In this document: positions 1,815 through 19,618 of the stretch, one piece after another | Numbering within the stretch: the stretch's first letter is position 1 | Layout of the letters: each line of letters starts with the position of its first letter | Virus record (IMG/VR): IMGVR_UViG_3300022682_000015 | Location: 1 to 41,265 of that record | Length of the DNA stretch: 41,265 nt | Origin: a virus | Reading direction: 5' to 3' (one strand) | Notes under the pieces: model-generated | What the model was told of the DNA's origin: nothing | The model's database searches: none | What the model saw: only the letters and a program-made list of their open reading frames with translations | Position numbers and translations under genes: made by a program

Positions 1815-1840
1815 ATTTCTTTTAACTCCGTTTTTCTTTT

Positions 1841-1869
1841 ATTATAGCATACTTTTATCTCTTTGTAAA
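1841..1869 (-). promoter_or_regulatory. Late-arm promoter, TTTACA-N17-TATAAT
   Basis: On the minus strand the -35 box TTTACA (1869-1864) and -10 box TATAAT (1846-1841) are separated by exactly 17 bases. Transcription would start near 1834 and read small terminase and then the late genes. It is the only strong promoter I see for the minus strand, so it probably drives the late arm. Confidence 0.75.
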
Positions 1870-1916
1870 CCCTTAATGTGTCCAAGTCTCAGAAAGTTTT
1901 GGGTTATTCTGTATTT

Positions 1917-2090
1917 GCTGGGTAATGGTAATTTCTAAAATTGCTGGGGTCTAAAAATTGAGGTTACTAGAAAAATGCTGGGTAATGGTAATTTCTAAAA
2001 TTGCTGGGGTCTAAAAATTGAGGTTACTAGAAAAACGATGGTAATTTCTAAAATTGCTGGGGTCTAAAAATTGAGGTTACTAGAAAAACG
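1917..2090. repeat. Three near-identical 53-60 bp tandem repeats
   Basis: Two 60-base copies (1917-1976, 1977-2036) differ at essentially one base. A third copy starting at 2038 lacks the first GCTGGGTA and follows at a spacing of 53. Each unit itself contains a degenerate direct repeat, TCTAAAATTG and TCTAAAAATTG. The array sits between the late promoter and the iterons, with no open frame conserved across copies. Possible roles are a terminase (pac) site, an origin enhancer or a transcription-factor array; the sequence alone does not decide. Confidence 0.9.
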
Positions 2091-2156
2091 GACGTGGAGA
2101 GGAGAAATAGATAAAGAAAGTGGGCGGCATAGCCCTTGACCTGGATCGGATCCATA

Positions 2157-2289
2157 TTCACCAGTATGATCCGTGTTCACCACTGTAAACAGTGTTCACC
2201 AGTACAATCCGAGTTCACTAGTACAACCCCTGTTCACCAGTATGATCGCTGCCAAAGAAAGTAAACAGTGTTCATCATAATGGATACAA
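2157..2289. repeat. Iteron-like array: seven phased 19-bp units, candidate replication origin
   Basis: The word TTCAC occurs at 2157, 2176, 2195, 2214 and 2233, exactly 19 bases apart. The sixth unit (2252) keeps only the unit end TAAACAGTG, matching unit 2. The seventh (2271) starts TTCAT. The working consensus is TTCACCAGTAYRATCCGTG. Unit 2 into unit 3 also forms the dyad CACTGT-AA-ACAGTG (2181-2194). Exact phasing, followed by about 200 bases of AT-rich DNA, is the arrangement of iteron origins. The binder is unknown; the HTH protein at 2541 and the primase-helicase at 4015 are candidates. Confidence 0.8.
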
Positions 2290-2324
2290 TCCAGTGAATG
2301 AGCCCGATTCAACCATTGAATATA

Positions 2325-2398
2325 ATTCATAAATCATAGTCCTCATTTAATCCTCAATTGAATATTCATTTAACAAGTGAGGATTATAATTTATGAAT
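2325..2398. repeat. 21-bp inverted repeat in AT-rich DNA (possible unwinding element or operator)
   Basis: The arms 2325-2345 and 2378-2398 match at 19 of 21 positions as inverted copies. The 32-base spacer contains a further TAATCCTCA (2348-2356) that also pairs with the right arm. The surrounding 2300-2520 is strongly AT-rich and full of ATTCAT/ATGAAT words. It lies between the iterons and the promoter at 2454, fitting either a DNA-unwinding element or a looped operator. Confidence 0.75.
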
Positions 2399-2453
2399 GT
2401 AATTTATTTATTGTTGTAAATTCAACAAATGAACAATTAATTTAAAATAAATG

Positions 2454-2482
2454 TTTACATTTGAATTTTTATTTTATATAAT
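2454..2482 (+). promoter_or_regulatory. Rightward early promoter, TTTACA-N17-TATAAT
   Basis: TTTACA at 2454-2459 and TATAAT at 2477-2482 with a 17-base spacer, reading into the small HTH gene at 2541. It is the same hexamer pair as the divergent late promoter at 1841-1869. Confidence 0.8.
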
Positions 2483-2487
2483 TAAAT

Positions 2488-2509
2488 TATCAATGAGTGA
2501 GCATTGATA
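2488..2509. promoter_or_regulatory. 8-bp-arm palindrome at the early transcription start (operator candidate)
   Basis: TATCAATG (2488-2495) and CATTGATA (2502-2509) are perfect inverted arms around a 6-base spacer, 5 bases after the -10 box, so they cover the expected +1. A protein bound here would block the promoter. The winged-HTH protein encoded next is the natural candidate; that autoregulation is inference. Confidence 0.6.
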
Positions 2510-2540
2510 TTTAATAACTTTTTTAAAGAAAGGTGGAAAA

Positions 2541-2843
2541 ATGAAAACTATTGAAGAAATCAAAGAAATCTATGAAATCAATGGAACTTTAGAAGATCAA
2601 GAAATTAATGAACTTTTTGAGATTATTGAAAATCTTGAAAAACAAATAGCTTCTAGAGGGAAAGGCAGAAAACAAGAAGTTTATGAAGTTCTTGAAAAAT
2701 ATGGACCTATTAGTATTAAGAAAATTGCTGAGAAACTTGGGATTTCCACAAAAAATGTAAGTTCTCAATTGACCTATTTGAAATCAGATAATATTAAAAT
2801 TTTCACAGATGATAATGGTTTCAAATTCATTTATAAATCCTAA
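2541..2843 (+). CDS. Small winged-HTH DNA-binding protein
   Basis: 100 residues. An acidic N-terminal helix pair (about 1-40) leads to a winged-HTH (about 42-100): RKQEVYEVLEKYGPISIKK, then AEKLGISTKNVSSQLTYLK as helix-turn-recognition helix, and a hairpin wing near IKIFTDDNGFKFIY. The Shine-Dalgarno sequence AAAGAAAGGTGG lies 6 bases before the ATG. It is a single-gene unit with its own promoter, an operator-like palindrome over +1 and an intrinsic terminator 8 bases after the stop. Its recognition helix and wing resemble those of the protein at 10100 (SQLTYL versus SQFTYL). Likely an autoregulated repressor/activator or iteron binder; the exact family is not recognised. Confidence 0.85.
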   Translation: MKTIEEIKEIYEINGTLEDQEINELFEIIENLEKQIASRGKGRKQEVYEVLEKYGPISIKKIAEKLGISTKNVSSQLTYLKSDNIKIFTDDNGFKFIYKS

Positions 2844-2850
2844 TTCATCA

Positions 2851-2886
2851 AAAAATTCGAGGAACTCACTTTCCTCGAATTTTTTT
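2851..2886 (+). terminator. Intrinsic terminator after the first HTH gene
   Basis: A perfect 14-bp stem (2851-2864 with 2871-2884) around loop CTCACT ends in a T run to 2886. The A-rich left flank means it may also work on the other strand. Confidence 0.9.
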
Positions 2887-3066
2887 ATTCCTCAAATGAA
2901 TTGAATTCATCAAATGGATTTCATTCACCATAAGGCTGGGCCCTCAGTAAAAGAGACTATAGGGCTGGACCGAGGCAGCCTGCATGGCCAAAATTTAACC
3001 TCCCGTGTTCTATCCATCTAGGCCTATATGGCTGGATCGAAGCCACCAGACCCCCAGCATTTTTGG

Positions 3067-3345
3067 ATATGGCTATATTCCAAAGAAAAATGTTGAGATT
3101 TGGCCGGTACAATGGACTTTTTATCTCCGGAAAAAGTTAGAAATGGAGCTAAGAAATGGACAAAAAGTAGATATGGCCTTAATCCAATAGAAAATGTTGA
3201 GATTTGTCCGGTACTGGTGGCCACTTTTTGGGAGTAAAAAGTCAGAAATGGAGCTAAGAAATGGCTAAAAACAAGGATATGGACTCAACTCCAAAAGAAA
3301 AAAGAGGAAATGGTGAGAGAATGTGGCTGATTTTGCCATCCGGTA
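3067..3345. repeat. Three imperfect tandem repeats of about 105 bp
   Basis: Copies begin with ATATGG at 3067, 3171 and 3277. Copies 1 and 2 share long blocks: AATGTTGAGATTTG, CCGGTAC and AGAAATGGAGCTAAGAAATGG. Copy 3 is degenerate but keeps ATATGG, TCCAA, AAAGAAAAA and CCGGTAC. Reading frames are not preserved between copies, so the unit looks like a DNA or RNA element rather than coding sequence. Function unknown. Confidence 0.75.
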
Positions 3346-3511
3346 CTTCAGAGCCTATCCTGTTCCTATTACTTATTTATAATTATATTAGTACTTTATA
3401 TTATTTTAATAGGAAAATAATAAAAAATAAATAAAACAAAAGTTAGTATAATAAAACTTCATATAGAAAAGTTTTTTCGGAGCCCTTCCTATTACTATTG
3501 CTTTTCAAATA

Positions 3512-3710
3512 CTTAATAAATTCAAGTACTTAGGAATTAGGAACTTCCTAAACTGACCACTGACCACCAATCCAGCACTATCAAAAATTACTATTCTTAA
3601 TAAATTCAAGTACTTAGCCCTAACTATCTGAATTTATTAAGAATAATAGCTATTTACAAATTTTAAAATTCGTGTTATAAAAAATATATATAATAAATTC
3701 AGGCACTTAG
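3512..3710. repeat. Direct and inverted repeat cluster around TTAATAAATTCA
   Basis: A 22-base direct repeat CTTAATAAATTCAAGTACTTAG occurs at 3512-3533 and 3596-3617. A variant TAATAAATTCAGGCACTTAG is at 3691-3710. An inverted copy creates a perfect 16-bp hairpin (3593-3608 with 3629-3644, 20-base loop). The last copy lies just downstream of the promoter at 3653-3681. It could be an operator array for the replication operon or a second origin-like element. Confidence 0.8.
3653..3681 (+). promoter_or_regulatory. Promoter for the primase-helicase operon, TTTACA-N17-TATAAA
   Basis: TTTACA 3653-3658 and TATAAA 3676-3681 with a 17-base spacer, placed about 105 bases before the HTH gene at 3786. 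The repeat copy at 3691-3710 overlaps the expected transcription start, suggesting regulation. Confidence 0.65.
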
Positions 3711-3785
3711 AAGGAACTGGATGCAGCACACTGCCAAACGAGACCGCGAGCATAAATAGGACTAAGAAAAAGGAGGTAGAATACA

Positions 3786-4001
3786 ATGTCCCCATCAAAG
3801 ACTAATCTCTTAATTGCACTTTACAGCGCTCATTACAATGCAAAAGAAGCCTCAGCACTCACAGGAATTCCATATCAGAAAGTCGCTGAAATATACCGCA
3901 CCCTCAAATTAACCAAACAAAAGAAGCATTCCCGCAAGACTCTACTATCCAAGCAAGCTCGCTACTTTCTCGATTCTCTTGGAACAACCCAAATAGCGTA
4001 A
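3786..4001 (+). CDS. Small HTH protein (Lys-rich C-terminus)
   Basis: 71 residues. SAHYNAKEASALTGIPYQKV followed by AEIYRTLKL reads as a helix-turn-helix (about 14-42): Ala-rich first helix, Thr-Gly-Ile-Pro turn, recognition helix. A basic tail follows (KQKKHSRKTLLSKQ). Strong Shine-Dalgarno AAAGGAGG. It precedes the primase-helicase gene by 13 bases, so the two are cotranscribed and this is probably a regulator or loader for replication. No family is recognised with certainty. Confidence 0.75.
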   Translation: MSPSKTNLLIALYSAHYNAKEASALTGIPYQKVAEIYRTLKLTKQKKHSRKTLLSKQARYFLDSLGTTQIA

Positions 4002-4014
4002 ACGGAGCTACAAT

Positions 4015-6435
4015 ATGGATAATTCCATCAATGTTGTTCCAAATAAGGAACAGCTAATAAATGCTATTCGCGCGAACGTACCTGCTTTTCTCTTGGAACA
4101 GCCTATTTGGATTGCATATTACTATAGAAAAAATAAAGATGGTACGTATTCCAAACCACCTTGTAAAGGGTACTCTGTAGACCCAAATGAACCTAGCTAT
4201 ATCTTTGACCACGTAATAAATGATGGGTTCCCAGGAATACGAATAAATGAGGATAATAACTTAGTTGCTATTGATGTCGATGATAAAGAAGCGAAAGCTG
4301 GTAAAAGGCCGTTCTCGACCAAAATATTACCCAAAGAATTCAAAGCTTTTCTCAATAAACACAAGTCGTACACCGAAATCTCACCATCAAATTGTGGACT
4401 CCGCACGCTCTTTGTATGTGACGATAAATCCAGCCTTCCTGGACGCGCTAATTTAAACGAAAAGCTGTGTTTGGGAGGGGAGCTGTTTGCGAATAGTGGT
4501 TATGTGACGTTGACAGGTAGGGCGTTGAGGCAATGGGATATAAAAAGTATTGCGGCAGAGGACTTGCTTCCTTGGTATAAGAAAAATGGCCATCCTGCTG
4601 AGAAAGAAAAAGACATTATAAAGGCGGACCAAGATGAACAGGCTAAAGCCTTTCAGCAGGTATCGAATCTTCCCTCTTTGAATAGCGCCCTCGAAGCTTT
4701 TCGTCTATGTAAGCTAGATCAATCTGCGGCTGTCAGGAACGCTTATGAAACAGTAATGGGTCAGTCTTATAACCATTACGACTTTTGGTTCAAGATAATG
4801 TCCGCAATACATCATTACATGACAACACTTGGAACGGATTCAGCCACGATATTAGCAAATGTTTTAGAATGGTGCCAAGAAGATCCAGTATCGTATCAAG
4901 ATGATGATGACGTACTAGATCATTGGCAATCCCTGGGTGAACAAGAGAATCCAATTACCTATCACACTTTATTCAAGATTGCTAGACTGATTAAGTTTAA
5001 TTGGCCTGTTGAGAAATGTGACAAGAAAGGACTTGGAACAGGGAAACCTTTGGTTAATGAACTACGAAATTTTAAGTATCTTCTTGATTACTTTGATATA
5101 ACTGTCTACCATGAGCCTTATACTAAAGCACTGTATGTCTCAAGTGATTTAAGTACAATAGAAAAGTTTTTCAAGACAGAACGTACTGCTCAATTCTTTG
5201 GAAAGATAGGACCATTTTCTGAAGAAGAACTAATCTTCATGCTATGGGATATAGCTCAGCAAAATCACTACGACAATGTAACACTTGGAACTATCTCACC
5301 ACTCGCTAAAGCATACTTTACGAAAACTGTTAAAGAGTTTAATCTTATGGAGCATTGGTTAGAAACTCCGTATAATGAGCTTCCCGAAGATTTAAAAGAA
5401 CCAGGTACTGATCCTTCGTTATCCACTATTGATTACGTCATGGATTGCATTAAATTCCATCCCCTCCAGAATAAAAAACTCGCCAAGACATATTTGAATG
5501 CCTTCTTCTTTGGTATAGTTATGCCGATGTACAATCCAGAACGAATATGGCCAGAACATAATTTCATGTTAATATTTACGGGCCCAGAAAACTGTAGAAA
5601 GTCAACATTCTTTTCATCTTTAATACCAAAGCAATTTCAGGAATACTTGGTTACCCATTCCACTGAAACTCTTTCTTCTGCCAAGTCTTTACGTGATTTC
5701 ATGATTCAAATGACATCTTCGGCTTTACTTGTTGTTGATGAATTTGAAATCTTCTATTCCAAAAAGAACGACTCACTGTTTAAAACTCTTGTTACTTGTA
5801 GCTCTGTAGATTTTGTACCTATATACAGTAAAGTAACCAAGAAAACCTTTAGAACTGCGGCATTAGCAGGGACCACCAATAAACAAAAACTTCCTTTAGT
5901 GCAGGATAGTTCTCGAAGAGTTGCATTGATTGAGGTTGACTTCATTGATACTGATGCCCTTGCTAAAGTAAACTGGCATGCCTTTTACAATAAGTATATA
6001 CGAAAAGGTAAGGAGTTAATTAAGCAACATGTATTTCCATGGAAACTTAAACAGTCTGAAATAAACATGCAGTATGAGGAAAATGAAAGATTCAGAGCTC
6101 CCACTGAACTAGAATACATAATGAGAGAGCTGTATGATTTTGATTATCCGTTTCCTGGTCTTGATGTTATCACATCAGTACAAACTGAATCAGTTTGGTT
6201 AGCTTCCCGAAGTGATATAATCGCTACTATCAAACAAAAGTATCCTTCTATGCCAATTAAGGTACCCGCGTTAGTGAATGTGTTAGAACAAATGTGTGGC
6301 AAGTATAGTGGAACTTCTAGAACCGCAAAACATCTCCCCAACTGTAAAGGAGAAGTTTCTAAAGGGGTCGTGACACAGAAAAAATATACTAGATATATCG
6401 TACCTCCTAGAAACACGGAGTTTATTTCTGAATAA
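4015..6435 (+). CDS. PrimPol-like primase fused to SF3/D5-type helicase
   Basis: 806 residues; expected to prime and unwind DNA at the origin. N-terminal half (about 20-195): LVAIDVDD with the DxD metal pair near 86-91, YTEISPSNCGLRTLF near 120-134 and GGELFANSGYVTLTG near 154-168, the pattern of bifunctional primase-polymerase domains. C-terminal half (about 480-700): P-loop-like GPENCRKST (523-531), LLVVDEFE Walker B near 571-578, sensor-like LAGTTNK and DSSRRVALIEVD near the arginine finger, as in VirE/D5-type helicases. Oddity: the Walker A glycine before Lys is Arg (CRKST). Genes of this kind replace separate primase and DnaB helicases in some phages. The first product of the replication operon together with the HTH gene upstream. 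Confidence 0.85.
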   Translation: MDNSINVVPNKEQLINAIRANVPAFLLEQPIWIAYYYRKNKDGTYSKPPCKGYSVDPNEPSYIFDHVINDGFPGIRINEDNNLVAIDVDDKEAKAGKRPFSTKILPKEFKAFLNKHKSYTEISPSNCGLRTLFVCDDKSSLPGRANLNEKLCLGGELFANSGYVTLTGRALRQWDIKSIAAEDLLPWYKKNGHPAEKEKDIIKADQDEQAKAFQQVSNLPSLNSALEAFRLCKLDQSAAVRNAYETVMGQSYNHYDFWFKIMSAIHHYMTTLGTDSATILANVLEWCQEDPVSYQDDDDVLDHWQSLGEQENPITYHTLFKIARLIKFNWPVEKCDKKGLGTGKPLVNELRNFKYLLDYFDITVYHEPYTKALYVSSDLSTIEKFFKTERTAQFFGKIGPFSEEELIFMLWDIAQQNHYDNVTLGTISPLAKAYFTKTVKEFNLMEHWLETPYNELPEDLKEPGTDPSLSTIDYVMDCIKFHPLQNKKLAKTYLNAFFFGIVMPMYNPERIWPEHNFMLIFTGPENCRKSTFFSSLIPKQFQEYLVTHSTETLSSAKSLRDFMIQMTSSALLVVDEFEIFYSKKNDSLFKTLVTCSSVDFVPIYSKVTKKTFRTAALAGTTNKQKLPLVQDSSRRVALIEVDFIDTDALAKVNWHAFYNKYIRKGKELIKQHVFPWKLKQSEINMQYEENERFRAPTELEYIMRELYDFDYPFPGLDVITSVQTESVWLASRSDIIATIKQKYPSMPIKVPALVNVLEQMCGKYSGTSRTAKHLPNCKGEVSKGVVTQKKYTRYIVPPRNTEFISE

Positions 6436-10696: not shown

Positions 10697-11098
10697 ATGG
10701 ATATAAAAAGCTTTGAAGAGTTTTTGGAAGGCTTATTTGAGAAAATTGGAGAACTTGAGAGACGGAAACGATCTGAATACGTTATGGAGGAGAGCGCTGA
10801 TCGTCTTAGTCATTTTAAAGAGATTGGTGCTATCACGGGAGAACCTGCCCATCAAGTTCTTCGAGGTATGATGGTTAAGCATACTAAATCCATTTACGAT
10901 ATGCTTAAATTCCCTGGTCTTATAGACTGTGATCAAGCCAGCTGGATTGAAAAAATCAATGATCATATCGTCTATCTTATACTCTTAGAAGCCCTTGTGG
11001 CAGAAAGCTTTGAAAATGTTAAAACCCTATCAAGCCCAGATGATCAAAGTTGTACAGGGGACAGAAGCACCACACCGTATAGTAAGCTTAGCAGCTAA
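10697..11098 (+). CDS. Hypothetical protein (133 aa), helical; in nucleotide cassette
   Basis: Mostly helical: DRLSHFKEIGAITGEPAHQV, MMVKHTKSIYDMLKF and SWIEKINDHIVYLILLEALV. The last pattern, a helix with Asp and a hydrophobic INDHIVYLILL face, recalls phage all-alpha domains associated with nucleotide modification, but I cannot assign it with confidence. Shine-Dalgarno CTGGAGGAATTAACG. The last about 25 codons overlap the start of the thymidylate synthase gene, so the two are coupled. Confidence 0.65.
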   Translation: MDIKSFEEFLEGLFEKIGELERRKRSEYVMEESADRLSHFKEIGAITGEPAHQVLRGMMVKHTKSIYDMLKFPGLIDCDQASWIEKINDHIVYLILLEALVAESFENVKTLSSPDDQSCTGDRSTTPYSKLSS

Positions 11099-11708
11099 TA
11101 TAACACAAAAACGCATTTCAGCAGGTACTGAACAAGATTCAGATAACAGGGCTGCTGAGTTATGCAAATACCTGGTCAAAGCAAACCACACTTCTTTACT
11201 TGAACACGCTTCAATTTCTTTTCTAATCGTCAATGTGTCCAGGTCTTTCTTGGCACAGATTACTCGACATCGTATGAGTTCTTTCACTTCTGCTTCACAG
11301 CATTATCAAGAGTATAGCGGATACGATGATCTTGTGGATGAACAGCTCACTCGTATCCCACTAGTTAAGAATACCCTTAACACTGTTGACCTAGCTTATA
11401 AGGATCTCATAAACCATTATGATATTGCTCCGGAAGAAGCAAGACAAATTCTTACTAACTCGAAAGCGGTAAACATTCTGTGGACAATTAACGCTAGATC
11501 TCTTATCAATTTTTTGAATCTTCGATTATGCAAACGCAATACCAAAGAAATGCTACGCTTTGCTAAAACAATCCACAAATTAGCAAAATCCTGGTTTCCA
11601 GAAGTATTTAATCACGTGGGCCCTGATTGTGTAATGTTAACATATTGTCGGCAGGGTCGTATGCAAGCAAAGGAATGTGCTGGTGTCAGACTCAACCCGT
11701 GTATCTAG
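11040..11708 (+). CDS. thyX: Flavin-dependent thymidylate synthase
   Basis: Converts dUMP to dTMP using methylene-tetrahydrofolate and FADH2. Seen: ITRHRMSSFTSASQHYQEY, the ThyX signature region (RHR near residue 76 followed by S..SQHY, where many members have SxRY), and NARSLINFLNLRLCKRNTKE, the conserved late block with LRLC. 222 residues, a normal ThyX length. Start choice: ATG 11040 begins the first core strand (MIKVVQGTEAPH); upstream in-frame options are ATG 11016 and TTG 10995, none with a good ribosome site. Overlaps the previous gene by 59 bases and the deaminase by about 26. Works with the deaminase and MazG-like enzyme that follow. Confidence 0.9.
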   Translation: MIKVVQGTEAPHRIVSLAANITQKRISAGTEQDSDNRAAELCKYLVKANHTSLLEHASISFLIVNVSRSFLAQITRHRMSSFTSASQHYQEYSGYDDLVDEQLTRIPLVKNTLNTVDLAYKDLINHYDIAPEEARQILTNSKAVNILWTINARSLINFLNLRLCKRNTKEMLRFAKTIHKLAKSWFPEVFNHVGPDCVMLTYCRQGRMQAKECAGVRLNPCI

Positions 11709-12697: not shown

Positions 12698-12710
12698 TGA
12701 CAATTTGTCA
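12698..12710. promoter_or_regulatory. Dyad TGACA-ATT-TGTCA with flanking direct repeats
   Basis: A 13-base perfect dyad just before the ssDNA-binding protein gene, preceded by a CAACTGA/CAACTGA duplication and followed by GTCAAAACGTCAAAACGTTAAAA. In mRNA it would lie in the leader; it may be an operator or a translational control site. Confidence 0.45.
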
Positions 12711-12740
12711 AAACGTCAAAACGTTAAAAAGGAGAAAGTT

Positions 12741-13292
12741 ATGATTACCTCAATTATTCGTTTTTCTTATCTTAGCGCTTGGGAGCCAAAGAAAACTCCT
12801 TCTGGAGACCTGAAGTACTCGGCATCTCTTCTCATCCCTAAAACTGATGAAAAAGGTGTCAAGGAAATCAAAGCTGCCATTAATGCTGCTGTTCAAAAGG
12901 GCATAGACGGCAACAAGTTTTCTCAGGTTCAAGCTAAGGCTCCTAAGTTTCACAATCCTTTGCGGGATGGTGATGAGGAATTTGAAGCAGGCAACCGCGG
13001 GCCCGAATATAAAGGGCATTACTTCCTGAACAGTACGTCAACAAACCAACCCGGTATCGTTGGACCTGACGCTAAGCCTCTGTTTGATCCTGAGGATCTT
13101 TACAGTGGCTGCTACGGCCGAGCTGATATCAATTTCTTTCCTTTCAAACATGCAGCAAATGTCGGTATTGGCGTTGGCCTCAATAACTTGATGAAAGTTA
13201 AAGATGGTGAACGTCTAGATGGCCGAATGAAAGCAGAAGATGCTTTTGCTCAGTTTTCCGAAACCCCTGCTGAAGAAGGCGATCTCGAATAA
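12741..13292 (+). CDS. DUF2815-type ssDNA-binding protein
   Basis: 183 residues from ATG 12741 (AAAAAGGAGAAAGTT upstream; the frame is open to TTG 12705 but without ribosome site). Pattern of phage DUF2815 proteins, which are gp2.5-like OB-fold ssDNA-binding proteins: IRFSYLSAWEPKKTPSGDLK, YSASLLIPKTDEKGVKEIK, later LYSGCYGRADINFFPF and VGIGVGLNNLMKVKDGERL. The acidic C-terminal tail ends EEGDLE, as expected for an SSB tip that contacts polymerase; the protein at 10100 ends identically. Lies just before the polymerase gene, its usual genomic partner. Confidence 0.85.
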   Translation: MITSIIRFSYLSAWEPKKTPSGDLKYSASLLIPKTDEKGVKEIKAAINAAVQKGIDGNKFSQVQAKAPKFHNPLRDGDEEFEAGNRGPEYKGHYFLNSTSTNQPGIVGPDAKPLFDPEDLYSGCYGRADINFFPFKHAANVGIGVGLNNLMKVKDGERLDGRMKAEDAFAQFSETPAEEGDLE

Positions 13293-17891: not shown

Positions 17892-19274
17892 ATGAGCATA
17901 AAGAAAGAAAAAGAAAATTTAAGTTATCTGGACCAGGCTTTGCATCCATACCAAAGGAAAGCCGTGGACTTTGTTATCAAGAAGGAAACGGCTTTTCTTG
18001 CTATGGATATGGGCCTCGGTAAAACCCTTGTTGCTTTATTAGCAGCAAAACAACTAAATCTGCCCGCTTTAGTTATAGCTCCGATTAATCCTATGTATTC
18101 TACTTGGCCAGAAGAAATAGAAAAGTGGGAGTTAGATCTTACATGGGATATTTTGCATGGGCCAGACAAAGACAAAGTATATTGTACAACTAATGCGGAT
18201 GTTCTACTGATTAATTACCACGGTATTAAATGGTTATACAACAAGATTTTAAATGGTGAGAAACCGTGGAAAAAGCGTATGTTAATCCTTGATGAGTCTT
18301 CTATGGTTAAGTCTCCTAAAACTCAAAGATTTAAGCTTCTGAAAAAGATGTGGCCTTTGTTCTTGAAGAATAGAATTTGTCTTTCAGCAACTCCATCTCC
18401 AAATGGGTACCATGAACTGTGGTCACAGTATTATTTATTGGATCGCGGTAAGACTCTTATGGATTCATTTTATAAGTACCGCAATGCCTTTTTTAATTAT
18501 ACTGGCCCGCCGTTGTTTAAAACAACACTTCGTAGTGGTTCCTATGAAACAATTAAAAACCGAATAAAACCAGTTACTTATAGATTAAAAGCCGAAGATT
18601 ATCTGGATATGCCGGAATACATACATAATGAGATAAAACTTACAATGCCTGCTAAACGGCTTCAAGAGTATAAGAAGCTTGAGAAAGATTTCTTCCTTGA
18701 GTTTACCGATTGCGAGGCAACGGCATTTAATGCTGCAGCTTTATCTTTAAAGTTGCGACAATACATTCAGGGAGCGTTATATACAGATGAGGATAATGGA
18801 GCCTTTTATCCTGTTCACAAGATTAAAATTGATGCGCTGAAAGAACTTATTGAAGCAAGCCCTGGTCAGCCTATCCTCTGTCCAATTCAATTTAAGTTTG
18901 AACGGAAAATGATTAATGCCTTTATGAAGTCGGACGTGCCTTGTATTGCAGGTGGGACGCCTACAAGAGTAGCTCAAAACTATATCAAGCAATGGAATAA
19001 TGGTGATCTTCCATTGTTGTTATGTCATCCCGCTTCTTTAGGACACGGTGTCAATTTACAGGCTGGGGGTCATGTCGTATTATGGTTTGGCTTAACGTGG
19101 AGCTTAGAACATTATCAACAGTTAAACGGTCGGGTTTATAGGCAAGGCCAAAAGAGAGCTGTTATCATAAACCACCTTATAATGGAGGGAACAATAGACG
19201 AACGAGTGATTAAAGTTTTAAAGCAAAAGGATGCTACACAACAGAAACTATTGGATGCATTAAGGAGGTACTAA
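17892..19274 (+). CDS. SNF2/SF2-type DNA helicase
   Basis: 460 residues. Motif I FLAMDMGLGKTLVALL (near 34-49), motif Ia VIAPINPMYSTW, motif II ILDESSMVK (DESS in place of the usual DEAH), motif III CLSATPSPNG, and motifs V-VI LGHGVNLQAGG and QLNGRVYRQGQKRAV. This is the phage SNF2-like helicase commonly found next to VRR-NUC nuclease and family A polymerase; likely a branch-migration or replication-restart translocase. Preceded by TATAAAGGC. Ends in TAATG, overlapping the peptidase start. Confidence 0.9.
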   Translation: MSIKKEKENLSYLDQALHPYQRKAVDFVIKKETAFLAMDMGLGKTLVALLAAKQLNLPALVIAPINPMYSTWPEEIEKWELDLTWDILHGPDKDKVYCTTNADVLLINYHGIKWLYNKILNGEKPWKKRMLILDESSMVKSPKTQRFKLLKKMWPLFLKNRICLSATPSPNGYHELWSQYYLLDRGKTLMDSFYKYRNAFFNYTGPPLFKTTLRSGSYETIKNRIKPVTYRLKAEDYLDMPEYIHNEIKLTMPAKRLQEYKKLEKDFFLEFTDCEATAFNAAALSLKLRQYIQGALYTDEDNGAFYPVHKIKIDALKELIEASPGQPILCPIQFKFERKMINAFMKSDVPCIAGGTPTRVAQNYIKQWNNGDLPLLLCHPASLGHGVNLQAGGHVVLWFGLTWSLEHYQQLNGRVYRQGQKRAVIINHLIMEGTIDERVIKVLKQKDATQQKLLDALRRY

Positions 19275-19618
19275 TGATTAGTAAATACTTTAGTAGAGAG
19301 GAATTTGCTTGTGAATGCGGTTGCGGGTTTGCAGCCGTAGACAAAGAGCTTTTGGACTTGCTGAATCTTGTACGTGAAAGATTTGGGCGACCTATAACAA
19401 TCAATAGCGGATGCCGTTGCGAGAAACACAATAAGAAGGTAGGCGGCAAACCCGAATCTTACCATTTGAAGGGAATGGCGGCTGATATAGTTATCGGCCA
19501 AGTAGATCCTGCAATAGTATTCGCTTTCTTCGATTCCGTCTTTCCTCATAAACTTGGGTTGGGGAACTACGACACCTTCACTCATGTAGATTCGCGGTCC
19601 TACAAAGCTCGATGGTAG
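19274..19618 (+). CDS. Peptidase M15 family cell-wall hydrolase (endolysin candidate)
   Basis: 114 residues. SYHLKGMAADIVI (SxHxxGxAxD zinc motif, about 62-74) and FTHVDSRSYKARW (zinc HVD near the C-terminus) identify an M15_3 D,D-carboxypeptidase/L,D-endopeptidase of the L5/ Ply118 kind. Full family length; no signal peptide or membrane anchor, so it would need a holin. It is the last plus-strand gene, coupled to the helicase, so it is made with the replication proteins rather than from the late arm that holds the holin-like genes. Confidence 0.9.
   Translation: MISKYFSREEFACECGCGFAAVDKELLDLLNLVRERFGRPITINSGCRCEKHNKKVGGKPESYHLKGMAADIVIGQVDPAIVFAFFDSVFPHKLGLGNYDTFTHVDSRSYKARW

Follow-up and report, generated by a model that had tools for sequence, protein, structure and literature searches.

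The non-coding stretch at positions 2844 to 3785 of this phage genome probably forms the right-hand half of a control region that serves both directions (about 1815 to 4014) and contains the phage replication origin, a reading to which we give a probability of roughly two in three. From the anatomy of the region and its comparison with related phages, we infer that the origin would be combined with early control at the point where two gene arms diverge. Here an AT-rich element adjoins repeated words and four 19-bp sites (TAATAAATTCARNNNNTTA), and directly downstream come a promoter pattern, the small p71 gene and the gene for a primase-helicase. Three features of an iteron or AT-rich origin are found: an easily melted element, repeated words beside it that could be initiator sites, and an adjacent primase-helicase gene. 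For this family of uncultured P22-like podophages, with early proteins that have almost no matches, it offers a specific candidate origin open to experiment.

The window that we analyzed is the whole 41,265-bp phage record IMGVR_UViG_3300022682_000015. When the ends of the record (1 and 41265) are joined and a 4-bp overlap (TAAG) is removed, the TerL frame reads across them and terminates in a motif resembling that of other TerL proteins. Since this frame is continuous through the joined ends, the record is complete or nearly so and probably represents a circular or circularly permuted genome. Its coat protein and TerL are of the kind found in P22-like podophages. Genes left of 1815 run leftward (TerS, TerL, portal), and those right of 3786 run rightward (p71, primase-helicase, exonuclease, DNA polymerase, ligase, helicase). 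The rightward arm also has genes for a ThyX-type thymidylate synthase, an Enc34-type single-stranded DNA-binding protein and an M15 peptidase, among 10995-11705, 12705-13289 and 19274-19615. Between the arms, the control region contains a single gene, the family-conserved HTH100 (2541 to 2843, plus strand), which encodes a winged-helix protein of 100 amino acids (PF08279 HTH_11, 1.9e-6). The p71 protein (3786 to 4001, plus strand; 71 amino acids) had no Pfam or PHROG match; it has an HTH-like pattern by eye and is a candidate origin- or operator-binding protein. The primase-helicase (4015 to 6435, plus strand; PriCT_2 plus VapE-like) has an N-terminal part weakly like the NrS-1 prim-pol and a VapE-like helicase part. 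Its primase profile gave weak matches (E 0.0015 to 0.0018) to structures 6a9w, 6k9a, 7rr3 and 7rr4, which we take to be those of NrS-1. GC skew switches in this area, with a detrended minimum at 1392, but gene direction switches there too, so the skew is not independent evidence for an origin.

The original prediction held that 2844 to 3785 contains no credible gene, and this was borne out. The gap runs exactly from the HTH100 stop to the p71 ATG, no open reading frame wholly inside it is above 66 amino acids, and five small open reading frames of the stretch had no match at E <= 0.1 in the compared loci. The repeat-rich region around it is larger than had been described and begins at about 1815.

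To place the region in a family, we collected relatives. Profile scans of IMG/VR gave G001 (3300017971_000122), G021 (3300007614_000010), G022 (3300001687_000763), G023 (3300020045_010099) and G009 (3300023440_000018), and a scan of genome contigs gave one clear relative, L335 (JAFCGI010000013.1), and a second, weak match. The closest relative is G001, of 43,093 bp (TerL 79%, primase 70%, HTH 64%, polymerase 72%). L335 sits in a MAG labelled Pacearchaeota, and its 22-mer is also found in a viral contig; the label is probably a binning error and is not taken to point to a host. The relatives share an order: a leftward gene at the TerS position, repeats, HTH100, a terminator-like hairpin, non-coding DNA, p71 and the primase-helicase. 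Exceptions are L335, where the TerS-position gene was not seen (the contig starts just before HTH100), and G009, where p71 was not found. The hairpin behind HTH100 (2850 to 2885, 15-bp stem) folds with z -7.75 in the window and with z -7.97 at the same position in G001; in the other relatives it was recognized by eye. A further small reading frame, also judged by eye, seems to come after it in L335. Beyond these genomes, searches of phage records gave only distant relatives of TerL, polymerase and helicase, plus a weak primase match. Among 50,697 phage records, the primase matched two records of one phage, weakly and in part, and the HTH100 protein matched none; blastn of 2400-4300 against phage records found no match either. 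Scans of viral_contigs with a single primase and a single portal sequence gave no relative. Literature searches, with most subscription journals outside their scope, found nothing on the region or the phage family. The family and its site formula appear to be undescribed in the literature searched; the parts are of known kind.

The stretch contains an AT-rich element at 3366 to 3475, which ends in the box ATAGAAAAGTTTT (3463 to 3475). Positions 3366-3465 have the lowest melting stability of any 100-bp window in the genome. The element has that property in four of seven records (the window, G021, G022 and G023); it ranks third in G001 and is not the lowest in G009 or L335. Within it lie a 19-bp site, diverged in some cases, together with an A-rich stretch and a GAAAAGTTTT-like box. 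The original prediction looked to related phages for conservation, and blastn of the 942 bp answered differently for its two parts. Window positions 3354-3666 matched G001 at 68% over 338 bp (E 6e-16), and 3373-3475 matched the more distant G021 and G022 at 71-73% over 105-111 bp, whereas about 2890 to 3345, with the 105-bp repeat described below, is not kept. The 22-nt repeat alone matched several other loci.

Word-repeat analysis found three copies of TTCCTATTA, at 3363 to 3371 and 3486 to 3494 on the plus strand and inverted at 3407 to 3415 on the minus strand. The repeated words in and around the element depend on lineage: TTCCTA in the window and G001, TCACTT in G021 and G022, and CTACAC in L366. 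With element borders drawn by eye, repeat-word scores were significantly above those of shuffles (p <= 0.05) in 8 of the 12 phages (combined p 6.7e-7; window p 0.007), the exceptions being G022, L361, L351 and L344. DnaA boxes (TTATCCACA) were considered as well, and the window has no copy. The window, G001 and G023 have the element right of HTH100, whereas G021 and G022 have it on the left. Being found on either side depending on the phage, it behaves as a movable module; its position in G021 and G022 counts against the origin reading.

A cluster of 22-base repeats with a perfect 16-bp hairpin, noted earlier, proved to be a conserved, site-like family (TAATAAAWTCARNNNNTTA) with direct copies at 3514, 3598 and 3691 on the plus strand and an inverted one at 3620 on the minus strand (4 against 0.02 expected). 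They correspond to IHF-type sites of 19 bp: TAATAAATTCAAGTACTTA at 3514 to 3532, the first hairpin arm at 3598 to 3616, and TAATAAATTCAGGCACTTA at 3691 to 3709, at the predicted p71 transcript start, all on the plus strand and identified from repeat, core-motif, pattern and alignment data; and TAATAAATTCAGATAGTTA, the second hairpin arm, at 3621 to 3639 on the minus strand, from repeat, core-motif and pattern data. A diverged site, TAATTATATTAGTACTTTA, lies at 3380 to 3398 (plus strand), where relatives have a site; L351 has a similar one by eye. The hairpin (arms 3593 to 3608 and 3629 to 3644) arises where sites 3598 and 3621 face each other, giving 16 perfect pairs. G001 likewise has two facing sites here, with the outer arms unpaired and another fold (z -2.5). 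Since the facing sites are kept and the outer arms are not, we regard the hairpin as a by-product and rejected it as a conserved feature.

These sites are concentrated in the control regions. Seven control regions together contain 19 copies of the core 11-mer TAATAAAWTCA, against 0.1 expected, and the remainder of all seven records contains none. Control loci contained few core sites: 2 in 80 polymerase-relative loci, 4 in 80 loci picked with an unrelated 15-mer, and 7 in 80 TerL-relative loci, 3 of these 7 belonging to G009. That 15-mer, GGAGCTAAGAAATGG, hit 118 stretches in viral_contigs, which we took as unrelated rather than as relatives; 80 served as a random sample and for chance calibration. 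The formula TAAT-N4-TCAR-N4-TTR fits 38 sites across 13 phages, with A/T-rich DNA upstream. TAAT seems more constant than IHF sites need, in a search whose pattern had itself imposed TAAT.

The layout of the sites is like that of IHF sites: an upstream A/T tract (judged by eye in the window), WWTCAR, four free bases and TTA. In IHF sites the consensus lies on the right, an A-tract on the left raises affinity, and strong sites are asymmetric (PMC8421141). The in vivo E. coli pattern is WWTCARSnnnTTA (PMC8407004); it has 14 occurrences in the 15.9 kb of control regions, compared with 13 in the other 181 kb. In the window this E. coli pattern, which may not be that of the host, matches three of the four sites and nothing elsewhere. 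It was tested after relaxed IHF patterns had been picked with the sites already in view. The strict consensus WATCARNNNNTTR occurs 16 times in six control regions (3.35 expected; shuffle maximum 10), all in five relatives and never in the control region of the window, whose predicted sites fit the looser pattern only. Among 1,500 permutations of the consensus, 4 equalled or exceeded it by count and 14 did so by ratio; by eye, the 4 resemble variants of a TTCATT word family. None of 11 records carries phage-borne IHF/HU genes.

We also scanned 2.9 million viral_contigs with the 19-mer and obtained 38 stretches, against 0.2-1.8 expected from Markov models. The 38 contigs include near-duplicates, such as L352/L361 and L351/L372, which have equal HTH scores. 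The exact 22-mer of the window was found in one viral contig, by sequence the L335 contig, where the primase has just 46% identity. HTH100 homologs are present in 13 of the 38 contigs, and the fetched DNA of the other 25 contains none. In those 25, after collapsing identical upstream contexts and dropping sites without 60 bases of flank, 20 distinct contexts remained. A run of at least four A or at least four T lies upstream in 11 of these (p 1.6e-5 against a background of 13.7%) and downstream in 3, the same asymmetry as described for strong IHF sites. The 19-mer TAATAAAATCAAGTACTTA is mostly outside long open reading frames in these contigs (for example, L340, L347 and L358). Its presence in phages without HTH100 suggests a widely used host-protein site. 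The 19-bp site is itself a DNA signature for finding relatives and, if IHF is confirmed, would point to hosts having IHF.

Candidate promoters surround these elements. Sigma-70 patterns were found for the TerS/TerL arm (TTTACA-N17-TATAAT, 1841 to 1869, minus strand), for HTH100 (TTTACA-N17-TATAAT, 2454 to 2482, plus strand) and for p71 and the primase (TTTACA-N17-TATAAA, 3653 to 3681, plus strand). The TTTACW-N17-TATAAT-like pattern precedes TerS in the window, G021 and G022, at the same place, and precedes HTH100 in the window; before p71 it occurs in the window (TATAAA), G001, G021 (TATAGT), G022 (TATTAT) and G023 (TACAAT), and G009 has a promoter-like pattern (TGTACT) before the primase. 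The inner site is 19 bp from the -35 box of the p71 promoter in both the window and G001. Ahead of HTH100, G021, G022 and G023 have a sigma-54-type TGGCAC-N6-TGC. In three relatives such patterns stand before HTH100 at L319 4756-4773, L321 4903-4920 (TTGGCACAATTATTGCAT) and L322 4230-4246, where the window has a sigma-70 type instead; no sigma-54 promoter was found in the window's control region, one search yielding chance-level matches only. Just downstream of the HTH100 promoter lies a palindrome, ATCAATGAGTGAGCATTGAT (2489 to 2508), a possible operator or leader hairpin. G001 has a different palindrome at this place, and a distinct one per phage is seen here (L310 7337-7355, L366 12146-12167).

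In the origin that we propose, a phage initiator, p71 or the primase-helicase, would bind the TTCCTATTA words, and host IHF would bind and bend the 19-bp sites. The AT-rich element would then melt and the primase-helicase would load. Transcription from about 3688 may help and could be tuned by the same 19-bp sites. IHF is used for origin opening in pSC101 and R6K (PMC5043065). IHF binding, the identity of the initiator and the replication start are proposed here by analogy with the known origins treated there, which have repeated initiator sites, an AT-rich element and IHF.

The main rival to IHF as the binder is HTH100. The 19-bp sites would then be HTH100 operators that switch the divergent arms, and the region would control transcription only, with no origin here. 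We consider this unlikely. The recognition helix region of HTH100 is nearly invariant, and among the DNA motifs found only the 19-bp site matches it in constancy. The sites adjoin promoters, HTH100 is present in 13 of the 38 contigs, and L366 has HTH100 and four sites, with the primase profile unmatched in the fetched part of that contig. However, the 25 contigs without an HTH100 homolog have sites that share the one-sided, IHF-like A/T run, and four inner bases vary as they do in IHF sites. Operators for HTH100 would also leave the conserved AT-rich element and its repeat words unexplained.

A different type of origin is conceivable from the distribution of CCAGC. This word occurs 67 times in the control regions of seven records, against 11.6 expected, and is not enriched in G009. 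Its strand depends on the side of HTH100: 31 minus and 8 plus on the left, 14 minus and 65 plus on the right (p 1.2e-10). This tally is a hand count of the full list over the window (1815-4014), G001, G021, G022, G023, L335, L339, L344, L351 and L361; a subset gave 29/6 and 11/60. An undescribed prim-pol origin, in which CCAGC would be the template word that starts two outgoing strands with the IHF-type sites and the melted element between them, is a long shot. As a genome-wide lagging-strand priming word, CCAGC was rejected: it runs the other way in the arms of the window (right, 11 plus and 16 minus; left, 30 plus and 10 minus). The orientation of the words does give a way to look, in the sequence itself, for possible start points of a phage prim-pol.

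Much of the control region is tandem repeat. Left of HTH100 lie a 60-bp repeat in three copies with GCTGG cores (1916 to 2090), found by repeat finding and by GCTGG/CCAGC positions, and a 19-bp repeat of 4.8 copies (TTCACCAGTATNATCC, 2157 to 2247). Minisatellites of 18-19 bp related to TTCATT/AATGAA occur in the window (2157-2247 and 2883-2927) and in the control regions of G001, G021, G022 and L341, with units that differ from phage to phage. ATTCATT is found 46 times in the control regions of seven records, against 10.2 expected. Right of HTH100, the array of imperfect repeats of about 105 bp that had been noted is real: TRF reports 2.2 copies at 3065 to 3301 (period 105, score 268), and the self-similarity score is 31, where none of 60 mononucleotide shuffles scores above 12. 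Of the conserved blocks described in it, CCGGTAC has three copies (3104, 3208 and 3340) and GGAGCTAAGAAATGG only two (3145 and 3250). Since the third CCGGTAC is 132 bp from the second, the third repeat copy is only partial. The array is lineage-specific: it was found in no compared relative, and blastn of this part yields only 24-27-base matches, two of them in random-sample loci. The 105-bp repeat has no demonstrated role in the proposed origin.

These arrays lend some color to the idea that the stretch is neutral DNA of a minisatellite kind, where repeats are tolerated beside ordinary promoters. From phage to phage, the sequence of the 105-bp repeat varies, as does that of the arrays of 60 bp and 18/19 bp, and about 2890 to 3345 is without a long match in any relative. 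Neutrality cannot explain 3354 to 3709, however, where an element is conserved and where there are 19-bp sites not seen elsewhere in the genomes, and we judge it very improbable for the region. That the hairpin and the 105-bp copies act as a structured regulatory RNA is scarcely credible: 3585-3655 does fold with z -6.35, but the predicted promoter at 3653 comes only after the hairpin, G001 retains the two sites without the outer arms, each 105-bp copy, folded as the original prediction had proposed, does no better than shuffles (z -0.37 and -0.18; opposite strand, +0.31 and +0.34), and Rfam gave no family match anywhere in the window. Among the functions first offered for this space, an origin, through the comparison with related phages, and protein-binding sites have gained ground, and regulatory RNA has lost it.

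Our preferred reading, an origin combined with early control, has counterparts in several known systems. Satellite phage P4 combines a primase-helicase with paired direct repeats, each of roughly 100 bp, in ori1 and crr; set against these, the 105-bp repeat of the window is without conservation in relatives. The NrS-1 phage prim-pol resembles ours through the weak match of the primase profile to NrS-1-type structures. The template word of NrS-1 polymerase is 8 nt long and occurs twice in its genome (PMC7102993); no such word was identified in the window. The pRN1 replicon shares the succession of a small regulator gene and a primase/SF3-helicase gene, in its case orf56 and orf904 (PMC4234260). 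Its candidate origin is a 100-nt stem-loop behind the replication gene, whereas ours precedes the small gene and has a hairpin that is not conserved. Compared with the iteron origins of lambda (ori-lambda) and of plasmids pSC101, R6K and P1, the words here are short (about 6-9 bp) and mix direct with inverted copies, no TTATCCACA box is present, and the initiator is only a candidate. Yet like those origins (PMC5043065), the region would bring together replicon-specific repeated words, an AT-rich element, sites for a bending protein and replication genes.
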